Positions 3,750-64,000 of a stretch of 64,000 bases of DNA are shown here, piece after piece. Each line of letters opens with the position of its first letter. The first letter of the stretch is position 1. The stretch comes from Pseudoselenomonas ruminantium. GTDB taxonomy: Bacteria; Bacillota; Negativicutes; Selenomonadales; Selenomonadaceae. The DNA is taken from NCBI RefSeq assembly GCF_900104055.1, contig NZ_FNJQ01000009.1, forward strand, positions 1-64,000. Direction: 5' to 3'. The notes beneath the pieces were generated by a model that searched no databases, was not told the DNA's origin, and worked only from the letters and a program-made list of their open reading frames with translations. The translations under genes were made by a program, and so were the position numbers.

Positions 3750-6236
3750 TTGCGTTTATATATTGCCGAGAAACCCAGCATGGGGCGGGAAATCGCCAAG
3801 TGCCTGAAGGGGCCGGTGCGCCGCTGTGATGGGTACTTAGAAACCGGGGAAGGAGTCGTGACCTGGCTGTTTGGCCATATCCTGCGGCAGGCAGAACCGG
3901 ATGAATACGATCCGAAGTATAAGAGATGGCGGGCTGAAGACCTGCCGATTATCCCGCAGCAGTGGAAGCTGTTTGTCGATAAATCCTGCGAAAAACAGTT
4001 TGCCATCGTCAAGGGGCTTATTGACCGCTGTGATGAAATCGTCCATGGCGGAGACCCGGACCGCGAGGGGCAATTGCTGGTCGATGAGGTGCTGGACTAT
4101 CTGGGCAATAAGAAGCCTGTCAAGCGCATCCTGCTCAATGCTTTGGATGAAGCCAGCATCAAGAAGGCTAATGCCAATCTGCGGGAGAACAGCGAGTTCT
4201 TCAATCTCAAGCAGTCAGCACTGGCCCGGGCGCGGGCAGACTGGCTGATCGGCATGAATCTGTCCCGGGCTTATACGCTGGCGGCAAGGCGGGCTGGTCA
4301 TGATAAATTGGTACTGCCCATTGGCCGTGTCAAGACGCCGACGCTTTCGCTGGTAGTACGGCGGGAACGGGAAATCGAGAATTTCAAACCCGTGGACTAC
4401 TATACCATCAAGGCCGAGTTTGCCCATGCGAACGGCACTTTCGCTGCCCAGTGGAAGCCCAAGGACACCATGGCAGGGCTGGACAGTGAAAACCGCCTGA
4501 TTGACAAGAAAATCGCCGAAGAAAAGCTTGCCGAGTTCCAGCAGGAGCCGCGGGAAGGCGTGATTTCGGCCTATCAGAAGACGAAGAAGCAGGAGCCGCA
4601 GCCCCTGCCCTTTTCCCTGTCTTCCTTGCAGGTGCTGGCAGGCAAGATGTTTGGCTATGCACCGCAGGTGGTGCTCGATACGGCGCAAAAGCTCTATGAG
4701 AAAAAGCTTACGACCTATCCGCGTTCGGATTGCGAGTATCTGCCGACCAATCAGTTCGGCGATGCGGTGAAGATCATCACGAATCTGGCGCAGGCAGGGG
4801 ATGAACGTCTGGCAGGCTGGACAAGTGGTGTAGATACGAAGACAAAGAGCCGTGCCTGGAATGACAAGAAGATTTCAGCTCATCATGCGATTATCCCCAC
4901 TACCGTCAAGGCCAATATGCAGACGATGACCACGGAGGAGCGTAATCTGTATTTCCTGATTGCCCGCGGCTATATGGCGCAGTTCTATCCCGTGCATCTT
5001 TATGACCAGACAAAGGTGGAGGTCACCTATAAGGATGAACTCTTCACGGCCAGCGGCCGCACGGAGCGGGACCTGGGCTGGAAGGTCATGTATCAGGCGG
5101 CGAAGAAAAAGACTGCCGATGATGACAGTGATAATGAAAGCGACAATGAGGAAAATGACGGCACTTTGCCGGCTATGAAGAAAAAGGACAGCGTCACCTA
5201 CGAGAAGGGCGCAATCACCCAGCGGGCGACCAAGCCGCCCGTGCGGTTTACGGAGTCCACGCTTTTGGCCGGCATGAAGGAAATCCATAAATATGTGAAG
5301 AATCCCGAAGCCAAGAAGCAGCTCAAGGACGTCTATGGTATTGGCACGGAAGCTACCCGTGCGACGATCATCGAAGATCTCGTCAAGCGCAAATTCATGC
5401 AGAAGCAGGGCAAGAAGAAGTATCTCGTGCCCACGCCAGCGGCCTATCTGCTCGTTGATGCCTTACCCGATGAAATGACTTATCCGGATTCCACGGCCAT
5501 CTGGGAGGATAAGCTCCATTCGATGTCGGAGGGGGACGGCACGCTCGATGAATTCCTGCGCGGCCAGATCGAGTTCACGAAGAAACTCTGCGGCAAGGCT
5601 GGCAATGCGCAGATGGAAGTCACCGGAGACAATGTCTGTCCCCGCTGCCATAGCGGCGTATTGACGCAGCGCAAGGGGAAGAATGGCCTGTTCTGGGGTT
5701 GTTCCAACTATCCAAAATGCCGCATGACCTGCAATGACAAGGACGGCAAACCGGATCTTGAGGATGCCAAGGCACGCGTGGCACGGTCTGTCCGTACTAG
5801 TGCGCCGGCGGCTGTGTCGGCCAGCCAGTTGGCACGGCAAAGCAGTGCTGCGGGCTATAAAACGCGGCCGATGGCGGCGGTGGCATATGCGCAAAGTGGC
5901 AATGGCCCCAGCGCACAGGACATGGCGGATCTGAATTCGCTGTTTGCGGCGGCGGATTACGAGGCACAGATGGCCGCGGATATGGCCAGCTATGAAGCGG
6001 CCCAGCCTAAGCGCGGCTGGCAAAATTGGGGAGATAAGCCTAAATTTTCGGCCAGCCCGCTGGAAAAAGCGGCAAAAGAAAAGACACAGGCAAATGATAA
6101 ATACCTGTGTCCTAAGTGCCGGGAAGGGCATTTACGCCTGATTCGCGGCAAGAACGGAGCGTTCTGGGGGTGCACCAACTATCCGCGGTGCACGGCTACT
6201 TTCGATGACAGCAAAGGGGCACCTTTATTAAGTTAG
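3750..6236 (+). CDS. topB: DNA topoisomerase III
   Basis: Type IA topoisomerase that relaxes and decatenates DNA by single-strand passage. Visible parts: N-terminal Toprim domain (RLYIAEKPS at the start, DPDRE metal motif about residues 104-108), the active-site tyrosine in TTYPRSDCEYLP (about residue 321), an acidic insertion near 460 (DDDSDNESDNEEND), and two C-terminal topoisomerase zinc ribbons (CPRC...CSNYPKC about 630-656; CPKC...CTNYPRC about 787-814) joined by an Ala/Ser-rich linker. Length is 828 aa; the extra length over E. coli TopB comes from the linker and ribbons. TTG at 3750 is chosen because it aligns with the family start MRLYIAEKPS and has AGGTG 8 bases upstream; the TTG at 3744 sits too close to that site. 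Confidence 0.93.
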   Translation: MRLYIAEKPSMGREIAKCLKGPVRRCDGYLETGEGVVTWLFGHILRQAEPDEYDPKYKRWRAEDLPIIPQQWKLFVDKSCEKQFAIVKGLIDRCDEIVHGGDPDREGQLLVDEVLDYLGNKKPVKRILLNALDEASIKKANANLRENSEFFNLKQSALARARADWLIGMNLSRAYTLAARRAGHDKLVLPIGRVKTPTLSLVVRREREIENFKPVDYYTIKAEFAHANGTFAAQWKPKDTMAGLDSENRLIDKKIAEEKLAEFQQEPREGVISAYQKTKKQEPQPLPFSLSSLQVLAGKMFGYAPQVVLDTAQKLYEKKLTTYPRSDCEYLPTNQFGDAVKIITNLAQAGDERLAGWTSGVDTKTKSRAWNDKKISAHHAIIPTTVKANMQTMTTEERNLYFLIARGYMAQFYPVHLYDQTKVEVTYKDELFTASGRTERDLGWKVMYQAAKKKTADDDSDNESDNEENDGTLPAMKKKDSVTYEKGAITQRATKPPVRFTESTLLAGMKEIHKYVKNPEAKKQLKDVYGIGTEATRATIIEDLVKRKFMQKQGKKKYLVPTPAAYLLVDALPDEMTYPDSTAIWEDKLHSMSEGDGTLDEFLRGQIEFTKKLCGKAGNAQMEVTGDNVCPRCHSGVLTQRKGKNGLFWGCSNYPKCRMTCNDKDGKPDLEDAKARVARSVRTSAPAAVSASQLARQSSAAGYKTRPMAAVAYAQSGNGPSAQDMADLNSLFAAADYEAQMAADMASYEAAQPKRGWQNWGDKPKFSASPLEKAAKEKTQANDKYLCPKCREGHLRLIRGKNGAFWGCTNYPRCTATFDDSKGAPLLS

Positions 6237-6244
6237 TGCGTATA

Positions 6245-6416
6245 GGCAGGCGGGGACATATTTTTCGGACTGCGCTGAATGTCTGGTATGAGGATGAGTA
6301 CCTCGTTGATGCTTGTGCCGGTTACCACGGCACATTGACATCGCCGTGTATTGTTTGTGCCAGCAACCAGCCAGCGGAGCAATCGCTCCGTTCCGAAAAA
6401 TACGTCCCCGCCTGCC
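6245..6416. repeat. Family A palindromic element, copy 1 (172 bp)
   Basis: The terminal 25 bases (6245-6269 and 6392-6416) are inverted repeats with one mismatch, of the form G-rich block, ATATTTTTCG. A central stem GTGCCG (6315-6320) / CGGCAC (6328-6333) lies inside, with AATGTCTGG on one side and CCAGCCAGCGG on the other. Copy 2 at 8131-8302 has the same length and layout. It sits between the convergent topB and DUF4127 genes and could stop transcription in both directions. Confidence 0.85.
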
Positions 6417-6444
6417 ATCCGTCTATTGTATTGAACTAGAACTT

Positions 6445-8043
6445 TTAAAAATCAATTTCGCATTCGAATAGGCGGTTCCATGGGTGGGAGATATGGAGTT
6501 TGTCCAGAGAGAGTCCTGCGGGCAGGGTGATGTTTTGCTGGGCGAATTCTTTCAGCCAGTCGGTTCCCTGTTTGGCGGCGAAGTCTTTTGCTCCGTCCAG
6601 ATTGCCGGTCTGCTGGTTGTAGCCGGGCTGGCTCCAGACGGCGGCGCCGAGTTTCTGCCGGACGTTGGCCTGATAGCCCCATTCTTCGAGGTAACGGGTG
6701 AGCATGAGTTCCTCCCGAGCCTGTTTATCCATCCATTTCGTGAGCATGCCGGTACCAATCAGGAAGCCGGTGGTATTGGTGGCGGTGTTCCAGCCGCCGT
6801 AGGCCTGCAGTTTGAACTGCAGGTCTTTTTTGTGCAGTTCGTTCATCAGGGCATTATCGGCGCCGTTGCCATAGGCGATATCGGCTACGGCAGTGGGATA
6901 GCCTTTGCTTACAAGCTCACTGACCAGATTGACAAAGGGCATGGTTCCCTTGCGGGGCTGGATGGTGTTGGCGGGGCCGTTGGCTTCGCCGGTTGTTCCG
7001 TCTGGGTTCGTACTGATGGCCATGACCAGTTCAGCTCGTTCTGGCGCAGGAACCTGTAGGCCGCCGGCGGCGATGATGGTATTATCGACGTCCAGGCCGA
7101 TTTTTTCATTGCAGTAGGCGGGGATGGTTTCACGGCCCTTGCCGATATTGTAGATGGTGTAGACAAAGGGAATATCTCCCTTGTCGTCGCAGATGGCCCG
7201 GCACAGCATGACCATGCCGAGTTCATCGGCACCGGAGGTCAGCTGCAACTTGGTCTTGTCAATATTCTGCCCGTATTCCCGCAGATGACGGGTTTCGTAA
7301 TGGGTTTGGGAGTAGAGGGCGCCGTCGTCACCGCCGAGGAACAGGAAGGAGAAAACGCCCTGCCCTGTGAGGTCAATCAAGGCTTTGTTGGCATTGTAGT
7401 TAAGGCCATGGCGGTGCGTCCAGTCTTCCATGGCGGCAGGAACGATTTCCTGTTCGAGCTTGGCAAGCTCCCGTTTTTCCTTCTTGGAGGCAAGGCCCAG
7501 TTCAGCCTTGTCGCGCAGCATGCTGTAGTCGCGGATTTTTACGGCATTTTGCTGGTAAATAGCCGGTTCCATGCCGTTGCCGGAGTGGGTAGCGGTCAAA
7601 AGTGTGCGCAGGATGGTGCCAAAGCCGTAGACGGGCAGGCGCGGATGGTCTTCGTGGAACGTGCGGAAGCGTTCTACGCGTTCGTTGATGGTGTCCTGCG
7701 TGAGTTCGTGATTGCGGGAGGCGACGAGGCTGCCATAGAGCATGGCATCGGTGGAGACTACCGCGGCTTTGGCACCGGAGGCGTTCTCGTTCAGCCACTG
7801 CCAAAGACCGTCCGGATCACCGGGCTGTTCTCGGGTTCCCAATAATTTTTCGGGAGGGACGACAACATCATAGCCGAGTTTTTCCGCCACCTGACGAGTT
7901 TCCTTGTCCGTAATCGGACGGTTGTCGAGCGGTACGAACAGGATTTTCTTCCCCTGCGCGGGGGAGACGGCTTCTGCTGCTGTCAGGTTCGGGATGAATG
8001 AAAAGGTTATGGCGAGTGCTATTAGCATGAATATTTTTTTCAT
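6445..8043 (-). CDS. Exported DUF4127 family protein
   Basis: A 532-aa protein with a cleavable signal peptide (MKKIFMLIALAITFSFIP, cleavage expected near LTAAEA). The rest matches the DUF4127 pattern: ILFVPLDNRPITDKET after the signal, a DAMLYGSLVASR segment, LGGDDGALYSQT, a TSGADELGM segment, and a late VADIAYGNGADN...LQAYGGWNTATNT block. The family has no established activity; the conserved Asp, Asn and His residues suggest an enzyme of the cell envelope (inference). ATG at 8043 has AGGAGG about 9 bases upstream; a frame start at 8067 would add 8 basic residues. An extended -10 (TGGTATTAT, minus strand, about 8069-8077) is the likely promoter. The gene is flanked on both sides by family A repeats. 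Confidence 0.82.
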   Translation of the reverse strand: MKKIFMLIALAITFSFIPNLTAAEAVSPAQGKKILFVPLDNRPITDKETRQVAEKLGYDVVVPPEKLLGTREQPGDPDGLWQWLNENASGAKAAVVSTDAMLYGSLVASRNHELTQDTINERVERFRTFHEDHPRLPVYGFGTILRTLLTATHSGNGMEPAIYQQNAVKIRDYSMLRDKAELGLASKKEKRELAKLEQEIVPAAMEDWTHRHGLNYNANKALIDLTGQGVFSFLFLGGDDGALYSQTHYETRHLREYGQNIDKTKLQLTSGADELGMVMLCRAICDDKGDIPFVYTIYNIGKGRETIPAYCNEKIGLDVDNTIIAAGGLQVPAPERAELVMAISTNPDGTTGEANGPANTIQPRKGTMPFVNLVSELVSKGYPTAVADIAYGNGADNALMNELHKKDLQFKLQAYGGWNTATNTTGFLIGTGMLTKWMDKQAREELMLTRYLEEWGYQANVRQKLGAAVWSQPGYNQQTGNLDGAKDFAAKQGTDWLKEFAQQNITLPAGLSLDKLHISHPWNRLFECEIDF

Positions 8044-8130
8044 TGTAAAATACCTCCTTCGAGTCATAATAATACCATTTTCCTATTCGTGGCGAAAGTT
8101 GTTTTTCCTTCTTTTTAGGTTAGGTTGTTC

Positions 8131-8302
8131 TGGGGGAGGGGGCATATTTTGCGGGTTCCACTAAATGTCTGGCATGTATTGTGCGTGGCGTATAGGGACA
8201 AGCGCCGGTTACCACGGCGCGTTTACATCGTTTTTCTTTGTTTTTTCTGGAAGCCAGCCAGCAGAGCAGTAGTTTCACCCGCAAAATATGCCCCCTCCCC
8301 CA
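8131..8302. repeat. Family A palindromic element, copy 2 (172 bp)
   Basis: The terminal 26 bases (8131-8156 and 8277-8302) are perfect inverted repeats (TGGGGGAGGGGGCATATTTT and complement). The central stem is GCGCCG (8202-8207) / CGGCGC (8215-8220) with the same GTTACCA loop as copy 1, and flanking AAATGTCTGG and CCAGCCAGCAG are shared. Ends differ from copy 1 at several positions but stay complementary to each other. It lies between divergently transcribed genes. Confidence 0.87.
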
Positions 8303-8356: not shown

Positions 8357-8520
8357 TGGTATAATTTTTTCGTAATATATGGCGTATTATCGATAGAGAA
8401 AAAGAAAAAAGATTCTTAGAGCTCCAGATGAAGGCGCTCTGTAAGAGTAATGACTGGCAAATTGGCAATTGTGTCCCCGCTCTAGGCACGTATTAACAAC
8501 TACCAAGAAAGGCAAGGAAA
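8357..8520 (+). promoter_or_regulatory. Extended -10 promoter and long leader of the helicase gene
   Basis: TGGTATAAT (8357-8365) is a consensus extended -10; no good -35 is visible. The transcript would carry a leader of about 145 bases before the ATG, with an A-rich stretch and a hairpin (AGAGC...GCTCT, about 8418-8440). Long structured leaders are usual for cold-shock RNA helicase genes, but no specific element is recognised. Confidence 0.5.
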
Positions 8521-9778: not shown

Positions 9779-9866
9779 GGCCACCTCATCCGTCAGCCCT
9801 TTGGGCTGCCACTGCCGGGGAGTCCACTGGACTCCCGCGCCTGGTGGCGCCCCCTCAAGGGGAAGA
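9779..9866. repeat. Intergenic run of four consecutive hairpins (family C repeat)
   Basis: Four perfect stem-loops lie in series: CAGCCC/GGGCTG (9794-9808), GGGAGTCC-ACT-GGACTCCC (9818-9836), GCGCC-TGGT-GGCGC (9837-9850) and CCCC-TCAA-GGGG (9851-9862). The lead-in CACCTCATCCGTCAGCCC resembles short dispersed repeats seen in many Firmicute genomes (recollection, not checked). It lies between the helicase stop and the next ribosome site. Confidence 0.7.
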
Positions 9867-9904
9867 CTGTGGGGAATTATTTGCAAATTTGGAGGGAATA
9901 CAAT

Positions 9905-11233
9905 TTGGACATTGTACCGATACTATTGCAGTTAGTACTGGTAGCATTTTTGATTTTTATGAATGGTTTTTTTGTGGCGGCGGAGTTTGCCTGCGTGAAG
10001 ATCCGTTCGTCACGATTGGAGACCTTGATTGCGGAGGGCAGCCGGCGGGCAGTATATGCCAAGCGCCTTACGGACCATCTGGATGCGTCCCTGTCGGTGA
10101 CGCAGCTGGGCATCACTCTGGCTTCGCTGGGGCTTGGCTGGGTAGGTGAACCTGCCGTAGCCCAGCTAATCCTGCCTTTGACTCGTTTGGCTGGGATGGA
10201 CGATATGGTAGGGCACACCCTGTCGCTAGTAGTGGCGTTTTCCATCATCACTGCGGGCCATATCGTGCTGGGGGAACTTACCCCGAAGACCATGGCCATC
10301 CAAAATGTGGAAAAGATTATGCTGTCCGTGGCTTTGCCCATGCTGATCTTCCATCGGATCATGTATCCGTTTGTCTGGATACTCAACCATGTGGCCAATT
10401 GGGTGACAGCTCGTATGGGCTTTGAAGCGGCCAGTGAGAGCGAGTCGGCCCATACCGAAGAGGAAATTCGCCTGCTGATGGAGGAAAGCCACCGGCAGGG
10501 GTTGATTGATGATACCGAAGCGGATTTTGTGGACAATGTTTTTGACTTCACGGAGCTCAATGTCCGGGAAATCATGACACCGCGCACGGATATGGTTGTC
10601 ATTTATCTGGAGGACAGCTGGCAGGAAAATATGGATGTGATCCTCTCGGAGCAGATGACGCGTTATCCCATCTGCAAGGAGGACAAGGACCATATCATCG
10701 GCTTCCTGCATGTGAAAGACCTCATGAAAACCATGGCCAGCGGCAAGCGGCCGAATTTCCGCAAGCTGGCGCGCAAGGCGCTGGTGGTGCCTGAAAGCAT
10801 GGATGTTAACGTACTTTTGAAGACCATGCAGGGCAGCCATAGCCAGATGGCCATTGTGGTGGACGAATACGGCGGTACGGCCGGCATGGTGACCATTGAG
10901 GACATCATGGAGGAGATTGTCGGCGACATTCAGGATGAGTTTGATGAGGAGCGCCCCACGGCAGAAGACCGGGGGGATAATGTCTACTCCGTGGATGCCA
11001 AGATGCTGCTGGAAGAACTCGAAGACATCTTGGAAATCACCATTGAAGATGAAGATGTAGACAGCGTGGGCGGCTGGCTTTATGACCAGATCGGCAGTGA
11101 GCCGAAGGTCGGCCAGATGGCTGCCGCTGCAGGCAACTTCTTCTATGTGGAGGAAGTGGAAGGCGCACGGATTACCCGTGTGTTGATAAAATTAGCTCAT
11201 GAACTCACAGAAGAGCATGAGGAAATCGTTTAG
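9905..11233 (+). CDS. CNNM/CBS-domain membrane protein (hemolysin C / CorC-like)
   Basis: A 442-aa inner-membrane protein of the CNNM (DUF21) family, linked to divalent cation, mainly Mg, efflux or homeostasis. It has an N-terminal transmembrane domain (residues 1 to about 180, with NGFFVAAEFACVKI and the ASLGLGWVGEPA motif), paired CBS domains (about 215-335, MTPRTDMV...YPICKEDKDHIIGFLHVKDL) and a C-terminal CorC_HlyC domain (about 355-440). TTG at 9905 is chosen because GGAGGG lies 8 bases upstream and the hydrophobic helix starts there; longer frames run back through the family C repeat. The SBP gene follows by 22 bases. Confidence 0.88.
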   Translation: MDIVPILLQLVLVAFLIFMNGFFVAAEFACVKIRSSRLETLIAEGSRRAVYAKRLTDHLDASLSVTQLGITLASLGLGWVGEPAVAQLILPLTRLAGMDDMVGHTLSLVVAFSIITAGHIVLGELTPKTMAIQNVEKIMLSVALPMLIFHRIMYPFVWILNHVANWVTARMGFEAASESESAHTEEEIRLLMEESHRQGLIDDTEADFVDNVFDFTELNVREIMTPRTDMVVIYLEDSWQENMDVILSEQMTRYPICKEDKDHIIGFLHVKDLMKTMASGKRPNFRKLARKALVVPESMDVNVLLKTMQGSHSQMAIVVDEYGGTAGMVTIEDIMEEIVGDIQDEFDEERPTAEDRGDNVYSVDAKMLLEELEDILEITIEDEDVDSVGGWLYDQIGSEPKVGQMAAAAGNFFYVEEVEGARITRVLIKLAHELTEEHEEIV

Positions 11234-25542: not shown

Positions 25543-25572
25543 CAGCCTGGAGTTACATCGATATACAAAGGC

Positions 25573-25642
25573 GCCCGGTGGCTGACAATACTTTTTCCTT
25601 CGCCCAAGCTTGGCTGCGGAAAAGCATCATCAGTCCCCGGGC
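25573..25642. repeat. Family B palindromic element, copy 1 (70 bp)
   Basis: GCCCGGTGGCTGACAATACT at the left pairs with the complement of GCATCATCAGTCCCCGGGC at the right. It lies just downstream of the ftsQ stop. The left arm is nearly the same as in copies at 40910-40991 and 42667-42746. The rest of the ftsQ-ftsZ gap (25643-25848) is AT-rich and holds the probable ftsZ promoter region. Confidence 0.85.
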
Positions 25643-25749
25643 TTATTGCTGTTTTTGCCGGTGACGATGAATAGGAACAGTGATGGTAACACAGATTTTC
25701 GTTTTTTTTCACTTTTTTTATGAAAGTTATAGCATTATGAGCAGATAAA

Positions 25750-40887: not shown

Positions 40888-40909
40888 CTTAACATCATAG
40901 TGCCAAGAC

Positions 40910-40991
40910 GCCCCGGCGGCTGGTAATACTTTTCCTTCGCTTTGACAAAAAGCGTCAAACGCTGCGGAAAAGCATCACCAGCCGCCGGGGC
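40910..40991. repeat. Family B palindromic element, copy 2 (82 bp)
   Basis: GCCCCGGCGGCTGGTAATAC at the left is matched by GCATCACCAGCCGCCGGGGC at the right (ATAC versus GCAT the main difference). An inner stem TTTGAC/GTCAAA sits at the centre. It lies just after the GH13-GH77 stop codon. Confidence 0.88.
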
Positions 40992-41040
40992 TTAGTCTGT
41001 ATTTTATAGACATCCCAGCCTTTTCAAGTGACATTTCCTA

Positions 41041-42644: not shown

Positions 42645-42666
42645 GATAGAAAATATATGCTAAGGC

Positions 42667-42746
42667 GCCCGGTGGCTGGCAATTACTTTCCTTTGCTTTG
42701 ATAAAAAGCATCAAATGCTGCGGAAAGCAATCGCCAGCCACCGGGC
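42667..42746. repeat. Family B palindromic element, copy 3 (80 bp)
   Basis: GCCCGGTGGCTGGCAATTAC at the left matches the complement of GCAATCGCCAGCCACCGGGC at the right; an inner stem GCTTTGAT/ATCAAATGC is at the centre. It follows guaA by about 20 bases and precedes the SRP RNA promoter. Confidence 0.88.
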
Positions 42747-42771
42747 TTAGTGTGTTGTGTTAAACAAAGTA

Positions 42772-63490: not shown

Positions 63491-63547
63491 GTAAATTGCA
63501 GTTTGTTGGTGCTTGCTTGAACGTTATTGGTTACAGAGCAGTGTGGC

Positions 63548-63738
63548 GGAGGTGGGGATACTTTTTCGCCGCCTCCACTAAATGACCCGCCAGCAGGATT
63601 ACCTGCCTTTTTAGCTACCTGCGCCGGGCAGGCCGGCGGCGCGTATGTTCAGCTCAGTTTCCAGCAACGTTTGTTTGCGGGCCAGCCTTCACTTCGTTCA
63701 GGCAGTCGTTCCGTCGGCGAATAAGCATCCCCGCCTCC
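63548..63738. repeat. Family A palindromic element, copy 3 (191 bp)
   Basis: GGAGGTGGGGATACTTTTTC (from 63548) is an imperfect inverted repeat of the right end (63715-63738). CTCCACTAAATG follows the left end as in copy 2 (TTCCACTAAATG). The central stem is GCGCCG...CGGCGC as in copy 2, with a longer loop. The stretch 63491-63547 before it and 63739-63855 after it hold no gene. Confidence 0.75.
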
Positions 63739-63855
63739 ACCCAAAGCTTCGTTTGTGCCTGCAGATATGTTCCGGCTGGAAGCCGCAATTACATCGATGT
63801 TCTTGTTACGGGAGCAACGATTCGTGCTAATTGTCAATTCCGTTTCTTGGGTTCA

Positions 63856-64000
63856 CGGGGGAGTGCTTTTGCTGTGGGAGCGACAGTCTGAGCGCCAGCG
63901 AAGACCGGCCCGACGCAGGTAGTAACTAGAAAGCACGCTGAAAGACGCGCCGTTGGCCTGCCCGGCGCATCCAGCTAAATAACTCTAAACTGCCAGGGAG
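63856..64000 (-). repeat. Family A element, copy 4, inverted and cut by the window edge
   Basis: Read on the minus strand, TTTAGCTGGATGCGCCGGGC...GGCGCGTCTTTCAGCG aligns with TTTAGCTACCTGCGCCGGGC...GGCGCGTATGTTCAGC of copy 3, and the end GCAAAAGCACTCCCCCG corresponds to the right terminus of the family. Its left end lies beyond 64000. Copies 3 and 4 are thus oppositely oriented neighbours. Confidence 0.65.

Follow-up and report, generated by a model that had tools for sequence, protein, structure and literature searches.

Some of the bcr elements of the Bacillus cereus group are structured RNAs. As a set (bcr1–bcr18) they are dispersed repeats of 100–400 bp, and bcr1 is present in tens of copies per strain (PMC6542083). 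REP palindromes are approx. 20–40 bp long, the GTAG/CGTC palindromic repeats having stems of 5–13 bp and loops of 2–20 (PMC3733652), and in the case of REPINs it has been argued that doublets move and singlets decay (PMC3116915). As judged from sequence comparison, the two palindromic elements described here, c1 and c2, belong as solo copies to a dispersed family of structured repeats of ~170–200 bp in Selenomonadaceae. We place the family among the structured, probably non-autonomous interspersed repeats and not in a category of its own; no description of these Selenomonadaceae repeats was found in open-licence papers.

The window, i.e. the whole 64,000-nucleotide stretch of Pseudoselenomonas ruminantium contig NZ_FNJQ01000009.1 that was analysed, carries the two A-type elements (172 bp each) at positions 6245–6416 (c1) and 8131–8302 (c2), where the preliminary description had placed them. 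They are located on either side of a DUF4127 gene, an assignment borne out by a PF13552 match (E 1.2e-134). This gene has a topoisomerase gene on one side and a DEAD-box helicase gene on the other; 8 bp separate c1 from the preceding topoisomerase ORF and 28 bp from the stop of DUF4127, and c2 is 63 bp upstream of the DUF4127 ORF. The arms of the long closing stem (P1) are indeed complementary within each copy and different between the copies. In c1 (6245–6269 and 6392–6416) they match over 25 nt (96%), the single A.C mismatch on the plus strand being a G.U pair on the minus strand, and in c2 (8131–8156 and 8277–8302) 26–27 bp pair perfectly. The common fold continues with short inner pairs and an inner helix, P3 (CTGGT at 6283–6287 with ACCAG at 6366–6370 in c1; CTGGC at 8169–8173 with GCCAG at 8253–8257 in c2), placed around the hairpin P4. 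The latter reads GTGCCG-GTTACCA-CGGCAC in c1 (6315–6333) and GCGCCG-GTTACCA-CGGCGC in c2 (8202–8220), which confirms the T-A to C-G compensation reported for the central stem. The internal words AATGTCTGG, GTTACCACGG and CCAGCCAGC are present in both elements, as had been noticed, and 13-bp terminal inverted repeats were detected neither at c1 and c2 nor at the other A-type copies inspected.

Inverted repeats of this size (arms of at least 24 bp, one mismatch at most, spacer of 60–200 nt) were absent from all 50 simulated Markov windows and occurred once in the real window (c2; c1 was missed by the greedy extension). When folded as single sequences, 150-nt pieces without the right arm did not outperform shuffled sequence (z −0.64 and 0.08), and the case for the fold is therefore comparative, not thermodynamic.

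The genome contains four exact occurrences of the core GGTTACCACGGC, all within such elements, and these four copies were used to build a covariance model (R1, which included a P2 hairpin). Further copies in the genome were sought with this model; the scan returned 58 rows which, once opposite-strand echoes had been removed, correspond to at least 51 distinct places (c1 and c2 included, as is the pair at 63547–64040; one of the 51 is a weak partial match, E 0.017), a lower bound because 150 of 697 candidates were scored. R1 matches were obtained in 17 of 31 genomes (our own and 30 relatives), counting G027, whose weak match (E 0.83) was treated as noise; they were absent from G007, G009 and G018, which belong to the same genus. 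A second model (R2), built from 42 copies, scores c1 at 127.5 bits and c2 at 140.3 bits, in both cases on the minus strand. When 150 genomes were sampled across the class, 9 gave R2 matches; in a sample of 121 genomes from the Selenomonadaceae, matches were found in 15, which represent 4 of 30 genera. Most of the Selenomonas ruminantium-group genomes searched contain tens of copies, the majority of them intergenic. According to a crude ORF caller, overlap with an ORF is limited to 1 of 59 contexts in this genus (L056), 1 of 35 in genus g14 (L223) and 2 of 13 in genera g77 and g84 (L231, L233). No fixed gene neighbour or orientation was observed among the loci examined.

In named genomes the core pattern was detected in 11 stretches, seven of which are from Selenomonas ruminantium; the other four were rejected as chance matches, since the model fit covers only 22–27 nt of hairpin. 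The phage records gave no match to the paired B-type unit described below, and the plasmids none to c1; the A core pattern was not found exactly in any of the viral contigs. The B unit matches one plasmid record, NC_002139.1 (pSR1), a small Selenomonas ruminantium record in which a partial B-type unit (81% identity) is located at 4406–4691 and which also carries radical-SAM and HAMP genes. At gathering threshold, no Rfam family was identified for c1, c2, the B-type unit of the window or the g14 elements scanned.

The fold was analysed in four alignments. A4 contains 23 A-type copies from this genus; L018, L045, L049 and L062 (weaker) were omitted, as were duplicates, opposite-strand echoes, 69-nt stubs and partner-type copies. 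A5 comprises 42 copies of all types from this genus, hand-picked from 74 distinct copies, and A7 and A8 consist of every one of the 35 copies from g14 and of the 13 copies from g77 and g84, respectively. Three copies with disturbed P1 arms or registers (L039, L055, L056) were retained. Within these aligned sequences, which come from four genera, compensatory change preserves the common fold. RNAalifold, applied to A5 without a supplied structure, recovered P1, a two-base helix and P3, and the distant two-base helix (columns 36–37/174–175) also covaries; the same helices emerged from A7, and P1, the short inner pairs and P3 again from A8. In P3 (5–11 bp, with arms ~75–95 nt apart), double-changed pairs amount to 6/7 in A5, 6/9 in A7 and 5/11 in A8. 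P4 varies little (double-changed pairs: 1/6 in A4, 2/6 in A5, 0/5 in A7) and is missing from the alifold structures of A5 and A8. The A7 consensus additionally contains conserved blocks outside the helices.

Standard pairs occupy 96.1% of the cells in A4 (82.1% when shuffled, 35–46% when slid), 95.5% in A5 (75.1% shuffled), 96.6% in A7 (80.3%) and 88.3% in A8 (68.5%), values which are inflated because the copies beyond the first four were found by models that reward pairing. For all four alignments, none of 500 shuffles attained the covariation score. Related copies are not independent and make this control look too strong, and for A5, A7 and A8 the tested structure was derived from the same alignment. 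In A4, double changes were found in 26 of 40 pairs, and none of five measures was reached by the 500 shuffles; in A5 and A8 the count of pair types was reached by one shuffle of 500 and the remaining measures by none. The better argument is the variety of compensated pair types, together with the recurrence of the fold in disjoint sets of copies. Support for selection on structure, originally proposed from two copies, extends far beyond them, the same main helices being recovered from three sets of sequences that do not overlap. The P2 hairpin was dropped for the A-type copies as unsupported, an A/G position covarying with a distant base instead. The A-type copies may also form a pseudoknot, GAUGU/ACAUU (87% paired, one of five pairs double-changed).

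These analyses refer to the strand opposite to that used in the preliminary description. On this strand, G.U exceeds A.C (34 versus 17 distinct site-types in two genera, p 0.024; 13 versus 8, not significant, in the first genus alone), and in 56 of 74 copies it is also the better-folding strand. This hints at a strand-specific fold, of RNA or of single-stranded DNA, with the minus strand as the tentatively favoured one in c1. The covariation by which structured RNAs are recognised is present in these repeats, and a folded DNA strand would display it as well.

Analysis of the arrangement of the repeats revealed inverted pairs. In the single-contig genome G010, 30 pairs account for 60 of 70 places; the orientation is the same in every pair, and 27 have gaps of 110–116 nt (150 of 611 candidates scored). 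In our draft genome (G000), 20 of 51 places are paired, again with a single orientation (10 of 10 pairs), many units being split at contig ends; all 14 contig ends that were read stop inside such units. Genus g14 has six opposite-strand neighbours no more than 400 bp apart, all with that same orientation, and also tandem copies, e.g. three in a row at L208. At the latter locus, equal-score tRNA genes on the same strand (9848–9921 and 10341–10414) flank a structured element.

Some of the pairs are enclosed in B-type units, which are ORF-free, ~605 bp long and bordered by 13-bp terminal inverted repeats (AATTGCAGTTTGT...ACAAACTGCAATT). Among 31 units chosen for having these repeats, 27 are 595–610 bp in length and four are shorter. 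One of the 31 begins near the end of the window: it is complete (63494–64097), lies behind a terminator-like hairpin and explains the inverted repeat at 63610/63945. Its left terminal repeat, AATTGCAGTTTGT, is at 63494–63506 (plus strand), followed by the left structured half at 63547–63739 (minus strand, R2 158.3 bits) and the inverted right half at 63852–64000 (plus strand, R2 82.4 bits), which is cut by the window end and runs to 64040; the unit itself ends at C50:64097, beyond the window. The G017 counterpart of this site contains 5.8 kb of other DNA. Among the matches listed for G017, there are 20 near-identical B-type copies, 16 of them without an IS interruption, and in 15 of these 16 the similarity stops at the terminal repeats on both sides (L118 is without the right one). 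Identical termini were found in G009 and G018, which yielded no R1 matches, around units whose palindromic arms are unrelated (L171, L183, L190, L196, L199; 427–698 bp, ORF-free in appearance); the interior is thus exchangeable.

No constant target duplication was found among the 31 units (TA is present on both sides of 10), and 31 flank-joined queries against the loci examined gave no clean empty site. Approx. 20 of the 31 adjoin a terminator-like hairpin (judged by eye); near-identical hairpins of the GTCAGCGGGC type are present in B-unit flanks at many unrelated loci, as if they were repeats themselves. In the loci read, the terminal repeat occurs in ORF-free units or singly, and no transposase with matching ends was identified. 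The suggestion that the elements are relics of non-autonomous transposons suits the paired B branch, with its ~605-bp units and terminal inverted repeats, but not c1 and c2, which have no such termini. A DUF772/DDE insertion sequence in G017 B-type units was rejected as the autonomous partner: its termini fall within the units and are unlike those of the units themselves, which makes it a passenger. Of its six full copies (L241, L243–L247), five are within B-type units and the sixth is outside any; four of the five occupy the same stem position, in both orientations, like some insertion sequences in REPs.

The comparison of orthologous sites revealed presence and absence of the elements. Among 13 DUF4127 loci, c2 is of full length in four (G000 and its orthologues in G005, G010 and G011), shortened to 69 bp in G003, G008 and G031, fused with a neighbour in G016, reduced to a remnant in G004 and absent from G013 and G017; G002 and G006 have other neighbours. 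In several relatives a second, inverted A element accompanies c2 near the helicase gene, and it is complete in G003, G005, G008, G010 and G011. In the window, a likely remnant of this element (the end of P1) was recognised by eye at 8466–8487 (plus strand), alignments to the relatives starting at 8466, and c2 thus probably once had a partner. A 188-bp stretch including the second A element is missing from G031 compared with G008, with GC at both junctions (by eye), which can be a plain deletion. At the c1 site, a full-length element is present in G000 only; at the other loci its place is taken by a remnant, by hairpins of another kind, by B units or by DNA that is unrelated. The convergent topoisomerase–DUF4127 gap (L063–L075) is an insertion hot spot, many relatives having another repeat or insertion there. 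In L004 (~1385–1645) a coreless A-type element appears, as judged by eye, to carry a second A-type element inserted in its stem loop. The window also harbours a second repeat family, hairpins of ~95 bp at 25561–25656, 40899–41004 and 42655–42760, with arms (AATACTTTTCC / GGAAAAGCAT) similar to those of P1 in the B type; hairpins like these occupy the c1 site in G004, G008, G011 and G016.

Comparison with the bcr repeats was by description only: these are likewise restricted to one bacterial group, dispersed and endowed with mobile features, and inverted pairs are not mentioned in the portion of that description considered here (PMC6542083). The GTAG/CGTC repeats are also intergenic palindromes that form head-to-head dimers, and those of the CGTC type are without a dedicated transposase, but their stems of 5–13 bp contrast with a P1 of up to 27 bp and several helices in our elements (PMC3733652). 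There is a close likeness to REPINs as presented in the part of PMC3116915 considered, i.e. intergenic, inverted, related palindromes with a spacer, compensatory changes in the stems and singlets resembling leftovers; the inverted doublets of G010 agree with this organisation. In contrast to REPINs, the halves are 170–200 nt long with nested helices (versus 20–40 bp for a REP), no RAYT is needed, some pairs are framed by terminal inverted repeats, and the stem feet of c1 and c2 are devoid of a GTAG or CGTC tag.

In spite of this shared architecture (PMC3116915), there is next to no probability that the repeats are true REP, BIME or REPIN elements mobilised by a RAYT transposase, and the REP/BIME-like membership suggested earlier was not upheld. 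The elements (~170–200 nt) far exceed the REP size range, and Y1_Tnp (PF01797) gave no match in 7 of the 16 same-genus genomes with R1 matches, five of these seven being at least 99% complete. No match was obtained in G001, G002, G010, G011 and G017, each of which has 24–74 model matches (echoes included). Size, the tag (at c1 and c2) and the missing Y1_Tnp rule out a REP/RAYT origin, and RAYTs are excluded as the general driver of these repeats. Another explanation of the complementary stems, homogenisation of palindromes by template switching between the arms without any selection, would account for P1 arms that are near-perfect within copies and different between them. It is nevertheless very improbable: P3, with its short and distant arms, covaries too (6/7, 6/9 and 5/11 pairs), so that homogenisation alone is not a sufficient explanation, and the covarying distant two-base helix and the conserved blocks outside the helices also speak against it.

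A host-serving family of multi-copy non-coding RNAs, each transcribed and acting through its fold in cis or in trans, and multiplied via recombination or hitch-hiking, would fit the conserved blocks of the A7 consensus, the strand bias (34:17 for G.U over A.C; better folding in 56 of 74 copies) and the retention of the c2 locus in several species. We regard it as rather unlikely, since gene neighbour and orientation are not fixed in the loci examined, only four of the 13 loci have the c2 element intact (four others have it shortened or fused, and one has a remnant), and the distribution is patchy (15 of 121 genomes, with no match in the same-genus G007, G009 and G018). Miniature inverted-repeat transposable elements (MITEs) offer a further model. 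In an ordinary DDE-type MITE only terminal repeats and spacing would matter, the palindromic stems being unselected by-products; the ~605-bp ORF-free units with their 13-bp terminal inverted repeats, the many near-identical copies in G017 and the use of the same terminal repeat around unrelated arms are all MITE-like. This model does not predict the compensatory change in P3 and the short inner pairs, i.e. large conserved internal folds, or the solo elements which have the same fold outside any such unit, and neither a target duplication nor, at the loci read, a parental or partner transposase was found; we therefore consider it clearly unlikely.

The reading that we find probable is that these are non-autonomous mobile repeats that depend on their structure, have the organisation of outsized REPINs and are moved by an enzyme, supplied in trans, that reads the fold. 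We infer this mobilisation in trans from sequence data. The enzyme would recognise the folded strand, either single-stranded DNA or a short RNA, and spreading would continue only for copies still able to fold, a restriction that would generate covariation among paralogues. By parallel with REPINs, the inverted pair would be the mobile unit and c1 and c2 leftovers, c1 residing in a high-turnover gap between two convergent genes. No mobilising enzyme was found at the loci read, and Y1 transposases do not co-occur with the repeats. As a long shot, the paired units could be RNA-dependent non-autonomous DNA elements, whose halves would encode an outward-read structured RNA employed by a trans-acting protein in the manner of bridge RNA or omega RNA.

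If the RNA-dependent reading were true, the family would represent a portable RNA module that is found in varied terminal-repeat frames, in tandem arrays or alone. Structured units of this kind account for contig breaks in the draft genome, and intergenic gaps containing them should be annotated with caution, as they are neither plain terminators nor REPs. Most of the palindromic repeats described in the papers considered are tiny, whereas this family has a multi-helix fold that is maintained across genera and a single pair orientation, and the existence of both solo and terminal-repeat forms makes it possible to ask whether movement requires the fold, the terminal repeat or both.
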